Positions 25,882 to 39,994 of a DNA stretch of 64,000 nt are shown one piece after another; position 1 is the first letter of the stretch; each line of letters opens with the position of its first letter. The translations under genes were made by a program, and so were the position numbers. The stretch is from Planctomycetota bacterium (GTDB lineage Bacteria > Planctomycetota > OFTM77), in the NCBI GenBank assembly GCA_029260795.1, contig JAJDCO010000108.1:62001-126000 (forward strand), written 5' to 3'. The notes below the pieces were generated by a model. It was not told where the DNA came from and made no database searches. It saw only the letters and a list, made by a program, of their open reading frames with translations.

Positions 25882-26949
25882 CTACTCCGTCTCTCCCAGG
25901 CAGCGTCGGCGAACGAGCTCGAGGGTCTCGAGCGACTCGTCGATTCGGCCTTGGATCAAGCCCGAGATGGCCGAGTCGATGAGGTCGATGATGTCTGGAA
26001 GTTCTTCGTCGACGCCCGACTCCTCGGCCGATGCCCAGCTCTCGAGATCTCCGAAGGGGTTCTCGTCGTCATCGGAAGTGCCGAGGCGCGGAAAGTCGTC
26101 GACGCCTTGATCGAGCTGAAAGGACTCGAGCGTCGCGTATCCGGCCGGGTCGATCGGCTCGTCCTCGTCCTCCTCCGCGTACTCGGGCTCCTCGAGCGGC
26201 GAATCGTTGCTCTCGATGGGTACGTGGCGACTCTCGTCCTGACGCCGAGCGTGCTCGAGCAGAAGGTGCATCCAATCACGCTCGATGCTCCGCTTGGGCG
26301 TATGCAGCAACGGACGCGTGGTGATGTCTCCGCTGCGACACTCGAGCAGCTGGTGCAGGGCCTCTTCACCGCCGACGCTTCCATCGGTGACGTGAACGAT
26401 CTGACCCGACTCGAGGAAGATCCGGCCCTCGGGTTGGCCGGGCGAGCGCACCAAGATCTCGACGGTCTCGTTGGCCGTGCAGTAGAGCTGGATGATGTCG
26501 CGGAGCTGGAGGCGGTAGAGGGCGCTGCGGGTGCCGCCCCGGCGCTGGGAGGCATTGAGCTGGAGGCAACGGCGCACTTGCTCGATGAGCTCGCGCGTTC
26601 GGACCGGCTTCTCGAGATAGTGAAAGGCGCCGAGGCCGAGGGCTTGTCGCTGGAGGCGCCGCGTGCCGTAGGCGGTCATGATGATGACCTGGATCTCGGG
26701 CCGGTCGGCCTTGAGGCGAGAAAGGAGCTCGAGCCCTCCTTGGCCGGGCATGCGGATGTCCGAGATGACGACCTCGAGATCGTGATGCTGCGCGATCTCG
26801 AGCGCTTCCTCGGTCGAGTGCACGCCTCGTGCCTGCCATCCATCGACCTTGTTCAAGCTCTGCACGAGGCTCTCGACCAGGACCTCCTCGTCGTCGACGA
26901 TCAAGATCTGGGCAGCGCGCGTGCTGGTGACGTCGGGCGCGGTCGTCAT
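25882..26949 (-). CDS. Response regulator with PATAN/DUF4388 domain
   Basis: 355 residues. Receiver domain about 14-130: D-D-E-E acidic pocket, phosphoacceptor Asp in V-I-S-D-I-R-M-P-G, Thr in M-T-A-Y-G and Lys in L-E-K-P-V-R. Next comes a DUF4388/PATAN-like domain, about 145-240 (L-Q-L-R-D-I-I-Q-L-Y-C ... G-R-I-F-L-E-S-G-Q-I-V-H-V). A very acidic linker and a helical tail follow. No DNA-binding domain, so it probably acts by protein contacts. Its ATG overlaps the kinase stop (ATGA), so the kinase at 26946 is its partner. Confidence 0.92.
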   Translation of the reverse strand: MTTAPDVTSTRAAQILIVDDEEVLVESLVQSLNKVDGWQARGVHSTEEALEIAQHHDLEVVISDIRMPGQGGLELLSRLKADRPEIQVIIMTAYGTRRLQRQALGLGAFHYLEKPVRTRELIEQVRRCLQLNASQRRGGTRSALYRLQLRDIIQLYCTANETVEILVRSPGQPEGRIFLESGQIVHVTDGSVGGEEALHQLLECRSGDITTRPLLHTPKRSIERDWMHLLLEHARRQDESRHVPIESNDSPLEEPEYAEEDEDEPIDPAGYATLESFQLDQGVDDFPRLGTSDDDENPFGDLESWASAEESGVDEELPDIIDLIDSAISGLIQGRIDESLETLELVRRRCLGETE

Positions 26950-28010
26950 GAGGAGAACTCCCTGGAAGCCGAAGACAATCGCTCAGCCGGCTCGATCGGG
27001 ATCGAGATCGAGACCCGCGAGCCGGCTCCGGGTGAGGTATCGAGACAGATGCTCCCGCCCAGCTTTTGAGCGAAGCGAGCTGCGACGCACAGGCCAAGGC
27101 CGAAACCGTCCGGCCGCATGGCGAAGAAGGGCTCGAGGACTCGATCGGCGTCCCGCGTCGCGACGCCAATTCCATCGTCCGCGACTTCGACGCGGAGATG
27201 GGGCGCGTCGCCGCGCTCGGTGTGCAGGAGGATCTCGATCGTTCCCCGGGACGGAATCGCGTCGACGGCGTTGATCAGGACGTTGAGGATCGCGGCCTGG
27301 AACAGACCGGAATCGAGTCGACACCGAATCGGATGTGTTGGACGATCGAAGCGGACTCGAATCCGATCGGCCATCTCGCTGGCAAGGAGCTCGAGTGTCT
27401 CCTCGATGAGCAGAGCGGGGTCGTGATGAGTCTCGTTGCGACGGCCCCGGCCACCACTGCGACCGAGCAGGTGCACGAGGCAAGACGTTCGCCCGACCTG
27501 TCCGAGTAAGATCCGCATGGGAGGGGCGAGCGGGGATCCGAAGCTGAGCAGCTCGTCTTGAACGAGCTCGGCGGTCGAGAGGACGCCGCCGAGAGCGTTC
27601 TTGATCTCGTGCACGAGTCGACTGTTCATCTCGGCAGCGGGTTGCGGAGCCGGTTCCGAACCGAGCCCGGGCAAGCTCGGAAGACGCACCACGACCTGAT
27701 CCCCTTGCAAGAGCTCGGTATTGGAGTCGGCGAGCGCTTGAAGGTGGTTGACGAGCTGGTGGACCTCGGTGCCTCGCTCGATACAGAGGTCGAGGAAACC
27801 TTCGATCTCGGGATCTCCGGAGCGCTTCTTCAGCGCATCCGCTCGTGCCATGACGACGGCGAACGCGTTGTTCACGTGATGAGAGATCGTTCCCAAGACA
27901 TCGTGAAAGACCTCGGCCTTCCAAGCTTCGAGCTGCCGACCCGAGAGTCCGAAGTCCGGAGACGTGGCCGGCGGATCTCCCGGCGGTAAGGCACTACGGC
28001 TCACGGACAT
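26946..28010 (-). CDS. Histidine kinase with two H-box-like segments
   Basis: 354 residues from ATG 28010. No membrane helix, so soluble. A first H-box-like segment, F-H-D-V-L-G-T-I-S-H-H-V-N-N-A-F, lies at about 35-50. A second, L-V-H-E-I-K-N-A-L-G-G-V, lies at about 130. The ATPase domain is complete: N-box N-V-L-I-N-A-V-D-A-I, G1 D-D-G-I-G-V, F-box P-F-F-A-M-R, G2 G-F-G-L-G-L. The frame extends to 28214, but that part is Arg/Pro-rich and unconserved. Partner of the PATAN response regulator. The signal is unknown. Confidence 0.88.
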   Translation of the reverse strand: MSVSRSALPPGDPPATSPDFGLSGRQLEAWKAEVFHDVLGTISHHVNNAFAVVMARADALKKRSGDPEIEGFLDLCIERGTEVHQLVNHLQALADSNTELLQGDQVVVRLPSLPGLGSEPAPQPAAEMNSRLVHEIKNALGGVLSTAELVQDELLSFGSPLAPPMRILLGQVGRTSCLVHLLGRSGGRGRRNETHHDPALLIEETLELLASEMADRIRVRFDRPTHPIRCRLDSGLFQAAILNVLINAVDAIPSRGTIEILLHTERGDAPHLRVEVADDGIGVATRDADRVLEPFFAMRPDGFGLGLCVAARFAQKLGGSICLDTSPGAGSRVSISIPIEPAERLSSASREFSS

Positions 28011-28219: not shown

Positions 28220-28248
28220 CCGGGAACGAAGGGGTTCTTCGTTCCCGG
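28220..28248 (-). terminator. 11-bp perfect hairpin between the small lipoprotein and kinase genes
   Basis: Arms 28220-28230 and 28238-28248 (CCGGGAACGAA / TTCGTTCCCGG) with a 7-nt loop. It lies 90 nt downstream of the small lipoprotein and 210 nt upstream of the kinase start, so it likely separates the two transcripts. T-run is poor. Confidence 0.65.
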
Positions 28249-28337: not shown

Positions 28338-28463
28338 TTACTTCTTCTCGCCGCCGCAAGCCGGCTTGTCGCCACCACAGGCGGCCTCGTCCTTGCTGCC
28401 ACAAGCGAAACCGACACACACCATCACCGCCACGAGGGCCAAAGCAATAAGCCGCTTCATCAT
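28338..28463 (-). CDS. 41-residue Cys-rich lipoprotein
   Basis: Frame from ATG 28463 (AAGGAG 6 nt upstream, near-ideal) to TAA 28338-28340. Residues 1-20 are a signal peptide (two Met, K-R, then a hydrophobic run) ending in a lipobox-like G-F-A-C. The mature peptide is about 21 residues with C-G-G repeats (A-A-C-G-G-D-K-P-A-C-G-G-E-K-K). It could bind metal or simply be a small lipoprotein. It lies downstream of an orphan terminator at 28647-28673, so it has its own promoter in 28464-28646. No family recognised. Confidence 0.75.
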   Translation of the reverse strand: MMKRLIALALVAVMVCVGFACGSKDEAACGGDKPACGGEKK

Positions 28464-28646
28464 GAAACTCCTTGAGTGTACGACGCCCCGGGGCCTTTCC
28501 CTTCCGGGAGGGTCCGTTGGATGGACGTCAGGTCTAGAAAGCCTAGGGATTGCCAGAGGCAGAAAGGAACGGAAATGAGTGATGCGCCGACATTAGACCA
28601 GCGGGTCTCGATTGTTTGCAAAGACTAATTCCGTGCGAAGCCACTG

Positions 28647-28673
28647 AAAAAAAAACGAGCCCCGAAGGGCTCG
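28647..28673 (-). terminator. Textbook intrinsic terminator with no upstream protein gene
   Basis: Minus-strand CGAGCCC-TTCG-GGGCTCG followed by nine T. A UUCG tetraloop on a 7-bp stem plus a long U tract is the strongest terminator in the window. The nearest minus-strand gene upstream lies beyond 32 kb, behind several plus-strand genes. It must therefore end a short RNA that starts between about 28680 and 29010. Confidence 0.9.
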
Positions 28674-28809
28674 AATCGGGGCCAGAATCGAGTCCCGCAA
28701 CCCCTGCGCGTTGCCCTGGGATTGGCAATGACCTCGCCCGGGTTTCAGCGGCGCCACCGGACTCTTGCGAGGTCCGAGGCAGCCACTCGTACTCCCCACC
28801 GACCGACCC
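28647..28809 (-). ncRNA. Candidate small structured RNA (about 160 nt)
   Basis: Inferred from the orphan terminator. A possible -10 (CATTAT) lies near 28818-28813 on the minus strand. The transcript would begin near GGGTCGG (28809-28803), which can pair with CCGATTC just before the terminator, closing the molecule as in 6S RNA. Inside are hairpins CGGAC/GTCCG (28776-28758) and TTGCC/GGCAA. GGGACTCGA (about 28695-28687) can also pair with TCGAGCCC, competing with the terminator stem. It is not a tRNA, tmRNA or SRP RNA by motif. No -35 is clear. Ends are estimates. Confidence 0.45.
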
Positions 28810-29012
28810 TATAATGACCGCCGTTCGATGAACGCAGGGACCCCTTCGCCCCTTGGCCGGGGCTTCCATCCGTCCCAAAGCCTCCGCCCCAGGACACGTG
28901 TCAGCACCCTCACGACTTCGGTCTCCCGTGACCGGATTCGGGTGAGTCTTGTCATGACCGGGGTTGCGTCGTCTCGAGTCGCCCCCCAAGAGAGACCAAC
29001 TGCCAGGACCAG
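28810..29012. other. Leader region of the mannosyltransferase gene
   Basis: A plus-strand TATAAT stands at 28810-28815 and could be the -10 of the glycosyltransferase gene, giving a leader of about 190 nt, although no TTGACA-like box is seen 16-18 nt upstream. The rest is GC-rich with no conserved frame. The minus-strand frame through here crosses the terminator and was rejected. Confidence 0.4.
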
Positions 29013-29813
29013 ATGAACACTGCTGCCGCTGCTCGACTTCGTGGGCTCGTCGTCTTGCCCACCTACAACGAGCGCGACAATCTTCCGGAGCTGGTCGAGG
29101 CTGTCCTGGCGGTGGATCCCGGGCTCTCTGTCCTCATCGTCGACGACAACTCACCCGATGGAACCGGTGATCTCGCCGACGCCTTGAAAGAGCGGCACTC
29201 CCGTCGCGTCTCGGTGCTTCACCGTGAGTCCAAGCAGGGATTGGGAACCGCCTATCTCGCCGGATTCCGAGAGGCGCTGACGCGGGAGGTCGATCTCGTC
29301 TTCGAGATGGACGCAGACTTCTCTCATGCGCCTCATCATCTCACCGCGCTGATCGAAGCGGCACGAGACGCCGACCTCGTGATCGGCTCCCGGTATGTGC
29401 CCGGAGGTGGGATTCGCGACTGGGGCGGTGGCCGACGCCTCCTGAGCGCCGGCGGAAACGTGTACGCACGCTGGATCCTCGGGCTGCCGATCCGCGATCT
29501 GACGAGCGGGTTCAAGTGCTACCGTCGATCGGTCGTCGAGATACTCGAGAAGAGCGGGATTCGCTCCAACGGCTATGCCTTCCAGATCGAAACGACCTAT
29601 CGTTGTCATCTCGCCGGCTTTCGGATCCGCGAGGTTCCGATCGTCTTCGAGGATCGCCGAGTCGGTCAGTCGAAGATGTCCTCGGCGATCTTTCGCGAGG
29701 CGGTTCGCCTGGTGCCAGCGCTCCGACTTCGCAAGTCGCGTCTGAGCGAGGAGTGCCGTGAACTTCGAAGGCGCCTCGAGGGAGGGGAGCGTGGTGTATG
29801 CTCCCCCGGCTGA
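29013..29813 (+). CDS. Polyprenol-phosphate mannosyltransferase (DPM1-like GT2)
   Basis: 266 residues. GT-A fold of the dolichol-phosphate mannose synthase group: V-V-L-P-T-Y-N-E-R-D-N-L, D-D-N-S-P-D-G-T-G, G-L-G-T-A-Y-L-A-G-F, the metal-binding E-M-D-A-D-F-S-H-x-P, then S-G-F-K-C-Y-R-R and the end motif E-V-P-I-V-F-E-D-R-R-V-G-Q-S-K-M. It transfers mannose or glucose from a sugar nucleotide to a polyprenyl phosphate at the inner membrane. No C-terminal membrane helix is present. It overlaps the next gene by 16 nt. Confidence 0.93.
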   Translation: MNTAAAARLRGLVVLPTYNERDNLPELVEAVLAVDPGLSVLIVDDNSPDGTGDLADALKERHSRRVSVLHRESKQGLGTAYLAGFREALTREVDLVFEMDADFSHAPHHLTALIEAARDADLVIGSRYVPGGGIRDWGGGRRLLSAGGNVYARWILGLPIRDLTSGFKCYRRSVVEILEKSGIRSNGYAFQIETTYRCHLAGFRIREVPIVFEDRRVGQSKMSSAIFREAVRLVPALRLRKSRLSEECRELRRRLEGGERGVCSPG

Positions 29814-31421: not shown

Positions 31422-32402
31422 ATGAATCACCATGCCCCAGCGTCTGTTCACGCCGACATCCGATCGGACGCGATCGAGACTCCGCCCCTCGCCTGCACCA
31501 TCGCAATCCTCGTCCACAACGAGGCGACCAACATCGCCCGCTGCCTCGATTCGGTGCTCGATCAACAAACGGAGAACGTTGTCGTCGAGCGGATCGTCGT
31601 CGTCTCGAGCGGCTCTCAGGACGGCACCAACGAGATCGTGGCTCAGTTCCGCGCGGATCACCCGTCTTTGGAGCTCGTCATCGAATCCGAGCGTCGTGGA
31701 AAGATCGCCGCTTGGAACCTCTTGCTCCGAAAAGGAAGTGCTGGAGACATCCTCGTCTCGATCGGAGGGGACATCATCGCGCAACCCGGTTGGCTCGAGG
31801 CACTGGTGGATCCGCTTCACGATCCTCGCGTCGGTATGACCGGAGGCCGACCGGTCCCGGTCGATGACGAGTCGAGCTTCTGCGGGTACTTGGCCAACGT
31901 GCTGTGGCGAGTGCATCATCGAGTTGCGACGGTCTCCCCGAAACTCGGCGAGTCGATTGCCTTTCGTCATCCAGGCGTCGAGATCCCTGAGTGGGTCATC
32001 GTCGATGAGGCTTACCTGGAGTGCCACTGGCTCAGGCAGGGCCGTCGCCTCGAGTATGTGCCCGAGGCGGTCGTCTCCAACAAAGGGCCAGAAACCGTTC
32101 GCGACTTCGTGCGTCAGTACCGCCGTAACGTGGCGGGGCACCTTCTTCTGAAGAAGCGGTTCGACTACGCAGTGGCGACGCTGTCCATCCGCCAAGCGCT
32201 CCGTGCGCTCCGACCGGAGCTCGCCGCATCACCGCGCCGACTCCTCCGGCTCGCGGCGATCCTCGGTCTTTCGCTCTACGGACGCCTTCTGGGGCATTGG
32301 GACTCTCGCTTCCGACCCGATCGCCATCGAATCTGGCGAATCGCTACGACGACGAAGCGGCTCGAGGCGGCTTTGCCTAAGCCGACCCCCGCGGCGCGCT
32401 GA
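31422..32402 (+). CDS. Family 2 glycosyltransferase
   Basis: About 326 residues from ATG 31422 (an in-frame GTG at 31380 would add 14). GT-A signatures: I-A-I-L-V-H-N-E-A-T-N-I-A-R-C-L, V-V-S-S-G-S-Q-D-G-T, an I-G-G-D motif in place of D-x-D (S-I-G-G-D-I-I), and V-D-E-A-Y-L for the catalytic Asp/Glu. The C-terminus has a weakly hydrophobic segment (L-L-R-L-A-A-I-L-G-L-S-L-Y) like membrane-associated GT2 enzymes. Acceptor unknown. It converges with and overlaps the next minus gene by 26 nt. Confidence 0.85.
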   Translation: MNHHAPASVHADIRSDAIETPPLACTIAILVHNEATNIARCLDSVLDQQTENVVVERIVVVSSGSQDGTNEIVAQFRADHPSLELVIESERRGKIAAWNLLLRKGSAGDILVSIGGDIIAQPGWLEALVDPLHDPRVGMTGGRPVPVDDESSFCGYLANVLWRVHHRVATVSPKLGESIAFRHPGVEIPEWVIVDEAYLECHWLRQGRRLEYVPEAVVSNKGPETVRDFVRQYRRNVAGHLLLKKRFDYAVATLSIRQALRALRPELAASPRRLLRLAAILGLSLYGRLLGHWDSRFRPDRHRIWRIATTTKRLEAALPKPTPAAR

Positions 32403-33267
32403 GACGCCCGAGTACGAGACCGGCGTCTCGCGCGAGGAGAAACCAGGGAGCGAGGAGAGCGGCGCGCCGGGGATGGATCGGAAAGCTGAGGAAGCTCCCC
32501 CACGCCTCGAGATGCTTGAGCAGGCGCGTCGAGGATCGACGGCTCACTCCGCTCGACTCGGGGAATCGCCCTCCAAGCCACGCGGCGGCTCGTCCGTTCC
32601 GAAAGCCCTGGCCAAAGACTCCATGGAGGCTACGGCGGAATCGATGAGCCACAATGGCCCGGTGAGCGAAAACGAGCTTCTGGCCGAGCTCTTTCTGCAA
32701 GCGCCAACACAGATCGAAGTCGGCTCCCGTCGTTCGCGACTCGTCGAAGCCTCCGAGCTTCTCGAGCGAAGACCGCCGCACGGCGAGATTCGCCGTCGCG
32801 GCCGCGGCCCAGGGACGTCGTGCATGAAAGGACGACTGATCGAGGAGGCCGGCCCATTCCGAGAGCTGCTCCCACGGGTTGTCAGGCTCACTCGGCACGA
32901 TGGGACCACACACGCCGGCGACCCGGGGATCCGAGAAGGGCGTTCGCAGTCCTTCCAACCACCCGGGCTCCGGTCGACAGTCTGCGTCGGTGAAGGCGAT
33001 GATCTCGGCATCGGAGTCCTTCCAGCCTCGGTTTCTGGCGAGGTAGGAGCTCGGCCAGTCGGTCGCCTGCAGGACGGTCAGCTCCGGATGACCGGCGAGG
33101 ACGCGCGCGGTCTCGTCGGTCGATCCGTTGTCGACCACGATCCGGCGGGTCGCGGGCTCCAGGCCGCGGAGCCTCGCCAGAGCCTCCAGCAGACCGGGCA
33201 AGTCACGCGCTCCGTCGCGGACGGGAACGACGATGTCGATCCTCGACTGGCGGCTCGCATCCCGCAT
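32377..33267 (-). CDS. Family 2 glycosyltransferase
   Basis: 296 residues from ATG 33267 (GAGGG further upstream; a longer TTG start at 33366 adds 33 unconserved residues). Motifs: I-V-V-P-V-R-D-G-A, V-V-D-N-G-S-T-D-E-T-A, A-F-T-D-A-D-C-R-P-E-P-G-W-L (D-x-D), G-G-F-D-E-S, and D-F-D-L-C-W-R (catalytic). Likely builds an exported glycan with its neighbours. The last 40 residues are hydrophobic (F-L-S-F-P ... A-L-L-A-P-W-F-L-L-A). Confidence 0.88.
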   Translation of the reverse strand: MRDASRQSRIDIVVPVRDGARDLPGLLEALARLRGLEPATRRIVVDNGSTDETARVLAGHPELTVLQATDWPSSYLARNRGWKDSDAEIIAFTDADCRPEPGWLEGLRTPFSDPRVAGVCGPIVPSEPDNPWEQLSEWAGLLDQSSFHARRPWAAAATANLAVRRSSLEKLGGFDESRTTGADFDLCWRLQKELGQKLVFAHRAIVAHRFRRSLHGVFGQGFRNGRAAAWLGGRFPESSGVSRRSSTRLLKHLEAWGSFLSFPIHPRRAALLAPWFLLARDAGLVLGRLSAPRGSA

Positions 33268-33431
33268 CTCCGTCAGTGCCCTCGCTCTCACTTCAGACTT
33301 CGGAATCGAAAAGACCTCAGGTCTCTGGGGCTTCTCACCCGATACAACCGTCACGGCGAGTCGCAACAGGAGCGACCAACTCGATCGCCGCCGGATTCGT
33401 TCGGCAACCCCCGAGACTGATCGACCCGCTC

Positions 33432-38515: not shown

Positions 38516-39994
38516 GTGTGGTCCCGCGTCGCGCTCATCTTGCGATTCAAGCTGCGGGTGGCGCTGAAGACCTATCTGAATCCTGCGAACGTCTTCTTGC
38601 TGTTGTTGACGACGGCCGGACTCTGGGTGCTCACTCGCAGCCTAGTCGCGGTCGGCCTGGAATCGGGGTTCTCGCCGGTCTCGCTGCTGACGCTCTGGTT
38701 CACCGGGATCTGGTCCCTGACGACGGCCGCGCACCTCCCGATCGCGAGCCGTCTCCTCTTCCGCTCGCCCGAATGCGAGCTCCTCCTCTCCCAACCGTTG
38801 TCCCCTCGACACTTTCTCTGGGAGCGCGGCGTCGAGCTGATGATGCCTCAGCTGCTCTGGTGGTTTGCTACCGGGATGTTCCTGTACTCCTGGACGGACC
38901 TGAGCGACGCGAGCGGCCTCGCCGCCATCGCCGGATTGGTTGCGGGGCTGATCATGAACGTTTTCTGCGTTCTCTATCAGCTTCTGTCCAGCCTCGTCAT
39001 TGGACACCTGCGCGGTCGAAGCGCCCGAGCCACGGTCGCCGTCGCGGTCACGCTGCTTCCTTGGGCACCTGCGTCGTTCGGAGGACCGGAGCTCGGGGAT
39101 TGGGCGGCAGCCCTGCAAGGTGTCTTTTTTTGGCCGAGCTCTGCAGCAAGCCTGATTTCCACGGGGATTGCCTTGGGATGGCTGGGCGCCGTCGCCTTGG
39201 TGCTCGGCGTCGCCGGGCTCGCGATCGGTGTCGATCGGGCCTTCGGTCGATGGCACCGTGCGGACTACAGCGCGGCCCTCGCTCGGTCTCAGAAGGCGAG
39301 ACGTCGACTTTGGCCCTGGGCGAACAGCTTGCTGCGACCGTTCCCGCGCTCTGTTCGGGGGCTCGTGACGAGAGACCTGGCGTTGCTCGTGCGGGGAATG
39401 TATCCGAGTGCACTGCTCGCCCTGGTCGGGCTCGGCGCCGTGCACGTGCTATTCGCGGCCGCGGTGCGCGATCCCAAAGACGTCCGTCTCGCCTTGGTGA
39501 TGACTCAGTTCTTCGGGATCTTCGAGGTGGTCTTGGTCGCGTGGGTGTTCGCCTTCGATTGGTTGAAGTTCCGTTCGGAGTGGCTGGGGCTCGAACGATC
39601 GTCGCCCGTCGCACCGCGAACGATGCTGGCTGCCAGCTTGGTCACCGCGGTCGTTCCCGGCTTGTCGACCGCCGCCAGCCTGGGTGTTCTCGCGATCGCC
39701 GTTCGACCTGAGCTGATGTCGTGGTGGCCACAGCTCCTGATCAGCCTCGGCCTGGTCGGGGGTGTGATCCCGGCTTTGGCCGTGCAGGCCGCTTGGGCCG
39801 GCTTCCGGGATCGCGTCATCCCCGAAGAGACGGCCTTCGGAATGTCTGGTGGATTCACCGGAATGATCCTCGTGCTGGCGACTTGGCTGCCCCCTTGGAT
39901 CGGACTGGCAGGCTGCCTGTTCTTGGCCCCGGCCGTCTTCCGGATGTTCCGAAGTAGCCTCGACTGCATTCGACGGCTGGAGGTGACCTGGTGA
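38516..39994 (+). CDS. ABC exporter permease
   Basis: 492 residues, GTG start after AGGAGAACCGAGAG. About 10-12 hydrophobic helices and few charged loops. N-terminal R-F-K-L-R-V-A-L-K-T-Y-L-N-P is typical of putative ABC-2-type exporters. Stop overlaps the start of the ATPase gene (39991), so they form one transporter of unknown substrate. Confidence 0.85.
   Translation: MWSRVALILRFKLRVALKTYLNPANVFLLLLTTAGLWVLTRSLVAVGLESGFSPVSLLTLWFTGIWSLTTAAHLPIASRLLFRSPECELLLSQPLSPRHFLWERGVELMMPQLLWWFATGMFLYSWTDLSDASGLAAIAGLVAGLIMNVFCVLYQLLSSLVIGHLRGRSARATVAVAVTLLPWAPASFGGPELGDWAAALQGVFFWPSSAASLISTGIALGWLGAVALVLGVAGLAIGVDRAFGRWHRADYSAALARSQKARRRLWPWANSLLRPFPRSVRGLVTRDLALLVRGMYPSALLALVGLGAVHVLFAAAVRDPKDVRLALVMTQFFGIFEVVLVAWVFAFDWLKFRSEWLGLERSSPVAPRTMLAASLVTAVVPGLSTAASLGVLAIAVRPELMSWWPQLLISLGLVGGVIPALAVQAAWAGFRDRVIPEETAFGMSGGFTGMILVLATWLPPWIGLAGCLFLAPAVFRMFRSSLDCIRRLEVTW

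Follow-up and report, generated by a model that had tools for sequence, protein, structure and literature searches.

What does a strong transcription terminator end when the strand on which it lies offers no gene to be ended? This question is raised by a site on the minus strand of the 64,000-nucleotide stretch of DNA analysed here (hereafter the window, to which all positions refer unless another contig is named). Read as RNA, the minus strand from 28673 to 28647 is CGAGCCC-UUCG-GGGCUCG-U9, that is, a G+C-rich stem-loop with a UUCG loop, followed directly by an uninterrupted run of nine T. By its sequence this is a textbook intrinsic terminator, at which release of RNA polymerase is predicted, and an earlier note on this DNA, which described a perfect UUCG-loop terminator with nine U, had thus read the site correctly. 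In its perfect G+C stem, UUCG tetraloop and U9 it is like known UUCG-loop intrinsic terminators, but unlike the usual intrinsic terminator it has no annotated gene before it. The features on which the following argument is based are collected in Table 1.

Table 1. Features of the orphan terminator and its surroundings (positions in the window)
Feature	Position	Strand	Basis or remark
T9 tract of the terminator	28647..28655	-	sequence reading
Terminator hairpin CGAGCCC-TTCG-GGGCTCG	28656..28673	-	7 perfect pairs, 6 of them G-C; UUCG tetraloop
GGGACTCGATT, possible antiterminator	28686..28696	-	can pair with the 5' arm of the terminator and its flank; marginal against shuffles
Predicted noncoding RNA, about 158 nt	28647..28804	-	5' end predicted from the position of the -10 element
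Predicted -10 element TATAAT, glycosyltransferase gene	28810..28815	+	perfect sequence match
CATTAT, -10 element overlapping TATAAT	28811..28816	-	A at position 2, T at position 6; start predicted near 28804
Promoter-like TTGCAA-18-TCTAAT	28592..28621	-	between the terminator and the 41-aa ORF; 9/12 matches
Small Cys-rich lipoprotein-like ORF, 41 aa	28338..28463	-	AAGGAG ribosome-binding site upstream
Glycosyltransferase family 2 gene, divergent neighbour	29013..29813	+	Pfam PF00535, E 3.3e-30

The terminator is located inside a 549-bp intergenic region. To its right, the first plus-strand gene with a Pfam domain is a glycosyltransferase gene beginning at 29013, which is followed by a radical-SAM-like gene whose score lies below Pfam's own cut-off. 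On the left side, the minus strand carries the 41-aa ORF, which has no match in Pfam or NCBIfam, then a histidine kinase gene (ending at 26946 and probably starting at 28010) and a response regulator gene whose product carries DUF4388. Between the 41-aa ORF and the kinase gene, at 28220-28248, two 12-bp arms form a perfect inverted repeat around a 5-nt loop; this repeat has no T-run. The nearest minus-strand gene upstream of the terminator is another glycosyltransferase gene (33366..32377), situated 3.5 kb away, so no gene is available for the terminator to end; it had been claimed that no same-strand gene lies upstream for more than 3 kb, and indeed none ends within 3.5 kb.

It was plausible to look for a gene within the intergenic region itself. 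A hidden protein gene is rejected on codon scores, as every intergenic ORF of 20 aa or more scored negative, i.e. as non-coding, and all 11 neighbouring genes and ORFs scored positive, though nine of these 11 had served to train the codon model, which leaves the kinase gene and the 41-aa ORF as the only independent positives. A tRNA or tmRNA was likewise rejected, with none present in the 64-kb window. We thus reasoned that a strong terminator on a strand which has no gene to be ended probably ends a short noncoding RNA, here a predicted transcript.

The strength of this argument depends on how easily such a site could arise by chance. A generic scanner run over 10 kb returned 5 terminator-like sites against 5.3 expected, which is no excess; weak matches are therefore meaningless, and the case depends on the quality of this particular site. 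In the whole window, its T9 is the sole T-run of at least eight, and only one further run of at least seven exists (a T7 at 39125). A stricter hairpin scan of the window found two sites, and a long T-run accompanied only the one at 28647..28673. In the 8.1-Mb assembly, eight T following another base occur at 31 places, of which 30 were examined. A strict hairpin abuts the T-run at three of them, with 0.063 expected from a hairpin background of 126 in 59,910 positions (0.21%), measured over the initial 30 kb of the window. The three sites are the orphan terminator, a site behind tRNA-Glu (L155) and a site designated L143, located near an ORF which, from its sequence, we take to encode an IS3-like transposase. 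At two more of these places, L151 and L156, the hairpins are longer-looped or imperfect. The regions preceding the T-runs of L143, L151, L155 and L156 showed no useful similarity to the orphan locus beyond the T-run itself.

A genome-wide search for the UUCG hairpin pattern followed by five or more T returned 24 rows, corresponding to 19 distinct places, while the reversed control gave 19 rows. A stem of at least seven pairs was found at only two of the 19 places, namely the orphan terminator and the tRNA-Glu site. At the latter (L155/L187, contig C152 near 39002), tRNA-Glu(CUC) is followed by a UUCG hairpin and T8; no third terminator of this type was found in the genome. Among other stable RNA genes of this genome, the RNase P gene has a G+C hairpin with a short T-run at its end, and no clear hairpin with a T-run was seen at the ends of the tmRNA and SRP RNA genes. 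Occurrence of the terminator is thus better than expected by chance, and such sites are rare in the genome. The inference drawn in the earlier note, from an orphan terminator to a probable unannotated short RNA, stands up to these results: the site is real and rare, and the one UUCG terminator comparable to it lies behind a tRNA gene.

Conservation of the locus was assessed at several levels. A BLAST search with 261 nt of the locus in 59 genomes produced matches in 45, including the source genome, the best one elsewhere covering 35 nt at E 0.0076 per genome. A single-sequence covariance model, run on 119 genomes, recovered its own locus and one other match at E 0.009 per genome; as about one match of this quality is expected by chance over 118 other genomes, we read it as a chance match. 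Relatives of the locus beyond chance were thus found neither in the 58 (BLAST) nor in the 118 (model) other genomes, all of which are phylum-level relatives. Conservation, suggested earlier as a check, was thus not found among 118 genomes whose kinship is at phylum level only. Matches of the kinase in phylum relatives and in 77 named genome contigs were domain-level only, so synteny of the locus could not be traced. Plasmids and phages gave short matches only (E 0.2-1), several of them on the terminator alone; the first 23 bases of the terminator also occur in four E. coli plasmid-collection records (E 0.2), where they are unannotated.

One might thus suppose that the hairpin is silent, i.e. 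a chance or relic terminator which ends no transcript. The lack of detected conservation would fit this, as would the lack of structure beyond the hairpin (see below), and 27 of the 30 examined T8 sites have no strict hairpin, from which it follows that T-runs alone can arise without function. What makes this explanation unlikely is the excess of strict hairpins at T8 sites, three among 30 where 0.063 would be expected.

If the terminator does end a transcript, a promoter should be sought upstream of it on the minus strand. TATAAT occurs three times in the 64-kb window, with 4.4 occurrences expected. The two copies outside the intergenic region lie 36 and 152 nt before same-direction ORFs of at least 100 aa, and a TATAAT is also found just upstream of the RNase P gene of this genome. 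Since these copies precede genes, the copy at 28810-28815 fits a -10 element serving the glycosyltransferase gene. Within the opposite strand between the terminator and 29339, CATTAT alone combines at least 4/6 matches with the key A and T. When starts were placed seven bases from each -10 element, they fell at 28822 on the plus strand and 28804 on the minus strand. The locus thus has what is characteristic of a bidirectional promoter: -10 elements of opposite strands overlap, the key A and T are present, and the predicted starts lie 18 bp apart. Excerpts of two papers (PMC12825309, PMC10268837) describe near-symmetric -10 elements as giving divergent transcription, and 18 bp as the commonest spacing of divergent starts in bidirectional promoters. 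TATAAT overlapped by an opposite -10 element, together with the 18-bp spacing, is thus common to those promoters and to our locus, where the starts are predicted ones.

On the other hand, the locus differs from the bidirectional promoters described in these excerpts in two respects. The T at -18 relative to the start, according to the excerpt of PMC10268837 a preference rather than a strict rule, is replaced by G at the minus-strand position here, and the divergent RNA would meet a strong terminator. A search for a -35 element on the minus strand found none, the best match being 1/6 at a spacing of 16-18. Moreover, CATTAT matches the -10 consensus at only 4/6 positions, and as any TATAAT automatically yields a complement with 4/6 matches, this weakens CATTAT as evidence for a minus-strand -10 element. 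The arrangement is not a general one, since neither of the other two TATAAT copies has a T-run of at least six on its divergent side within 600 nt (0/2).

Taking these observations together, we tentatively propose, with a probability of roughly 0.45, that the terminator ends a short noncoding transcript which is divergent from the plus-strand glycosyltransferase promoter. RNA polymerase would use TATAAT in its main direction, toward the glycosyltransferase gene, and, because this hexamer is nearly symmetric, it might also recognise it on the minus strand as CATTAT. The leftward RNA would then start near 28804 and be released, after about 158 nt, at the UUCG hairpin and U9. In this way, the terminator may protect the genes for the lipoprotein, histidine kinase and response regulator from leftward transcription, while the lipoprotein/kinase unit could be served by its own promoter-like site past the terminator; it should be borne in mind that at least one site as good as TTGCAA-18-TCTAAT was found in 22.5% of shuffles. 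The freed RNA, having a stable 3' hairpin and a U-tail, may in addition work as a trans-acting sRNA. With intergenic trans-acting sRNAs (excerpts of PMC3526491 give general background on their discovery) the predicted RNA has in common that it is non-coding, falls within 100-200 nt and has a 3' end formed by a hairpin and a U-run. No conservation was found to accompany this likeness in the phylum-level relatives searched.

The body of the predicted RNA was then compared with shuffled sequences. With the ends given in the earlier note, its fold reached a z of -1.66; starting from 28804, two runs gave -1.70 and -1.36; without the terminator, z was -1.08, and 60 of 400 shuffles were as good. The RNA body is thus not unusually stable in comparison to shuffles. 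The fold predicted from 28804 is a three-way junction. Two structural claims made earlier were not borne out by this comparison. That the body folds with paired ends in a 6S-like manner is not above chance (142 of 1000 shuffles did as well), and an alternative pairing said to compete with the terminator is marginal, being equalled by 103 of 1000 shuffles when 130 nt are considered and by 26 of 1000 when only the nearest 40 nt are.

These results bear on what we keep as the main rival of the divergent transcript, namely a dedicated gene for a regulatory sRNA, transcribed from a separate, unrecognised promoter. Its product would base-pair with target mRNAs, and its strong terminator would reflect strong expression. 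The T9 and perfect hairpin are as strong as the terminator of tRNA-Glu, whereas the RNase P gene has only a short T-run at its end and the tmRNA and SRP RNA genes show no clear hairpin with a T-run. A transcript made incidentally in the divergent direction should have no need of such a signal, and none accompanies the other two TATAAT copies. The strength of the terminator thus suggests that the RNA may not be a mere side product, and for this reason the idea is retained. However, CATTAT is the sole minus-strand promoter match in the 340 nt upstream, the fold z is only -1.1 to -1.7, and no homologue was detected in any genome searched, so that a dedicated sRNA gene appears possible but somewhat doubtful.

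A different role for the same segment would be that of a leader, acting as an attenuator or riboswitch. Transcription would again start near 28804, and the balance between the terminator and a competing pairing would set how much transcription continues into the genes for the lipoprotein, kinase and response regulator. Such a scheme would make use of the ability of GGGACUCGAUU to pair with the 5' arm of the terminator, and the downstream genes do lie on the same strand. Yet the competing pairing is marginal at the shuffle frequencies given above, the ORF starts about 184 nt beyond the T-run, and no riboswitch or leader class of Rfam matches the region at E<=10. The promoter-like site located between the T-run and the ORF also argues against a leader switch, and we thus assign this scheme a low probability.

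A likeness to 6S RNA has also been suggested, and a strongly diverged 6S could be the one common housekeeping RNA that is missing from this genome. Similar length and a possible closing helix are common to 6S RNA (RF00013) and the predicted RNA. Moreover, the whole genome gave no 6S match at E<=10 but did yield SRP RNA, RNase P RNA and tmRNA, and 24 of the 59 genomes of the phylum set do have 6S matches. The remaining 35, including the source genome, have none, which suggests that lack of 6S in the source genome is real but common.

The Rfam check recommended for this suggestion was run and proved negative, as RF00013 gave no match at E<=10 within 28450-29020 even under permissive filters, nor anywhere in the genome. 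Two phylum-specific models were also built from 20 of the 24 6S matches of the phylum; the RNAalifold structure of the first was poor, and it was replaced by a second one whose structure was set by hand after Rfam's pattern. At the locus these models scored at most 3.6 and 7.1 bits, respectively, and the best matches of both were on the plus strand, i.e. the wrong one. In a control, seven 6S genes from the building set of the second model scored 75.8 to 122 bits. The predicted RNA also differs from 6S RNA in its shape, since a three-way junction takes the place of a rod with a long closing helix and a single-stranded central bubble. A 6S identity is therefore rejected, and a diverged 6S is largely refuted, excluded as far as models can do so, which leaves it with a very slight chance indeed.

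Other known families did not provide a better candidate. Rfam gave 0 matches at gathering score in the whole window, and the three hits that the region gave at E<=10 (an animal lncRNA, a microRNA and RAGATH-32) were all far below gathering and are read as chance matches.

Going beyond the divergent transcript proposed above, one may speculate that the locus represents an sRNA gene near its birth: a lineage-specific, highly expressed noncoding RNA, which would have originated in the divergent activity of a symmetric promoter and become fixed on acquiring a terminator that ranks among the strongest of the genome, possibly in a lineage from which recognisable 6S has disappeared. We consider this scenario quite improbable. 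The locus is a real and locally rare terminator of an ordinary kind, and a noncoding RNA function is putative. Should the locus be transcribed, it would illustrate clearly how the inherent two-way activity of a bacterial promoter, combined with a terminator, can give rise to a short noncoding RNA, and this in a genome with very few T-run terminators; if not transcribed, it is an ordinary terminator. For annotation, a strong orphan terminator may serve as an informative flag for RNA genes in genomes poor in T-run terminators. One further candidate for an orphan terminator was noted in the same genome, at L156 (contig C154, oriented, about 1470-1510), where a T8 terminator-like hairpin, GGCCCGAGATACG...CGTCTCGGGCC, is located in an intergenic region bordered by genes that appear to be on the opposite strand.
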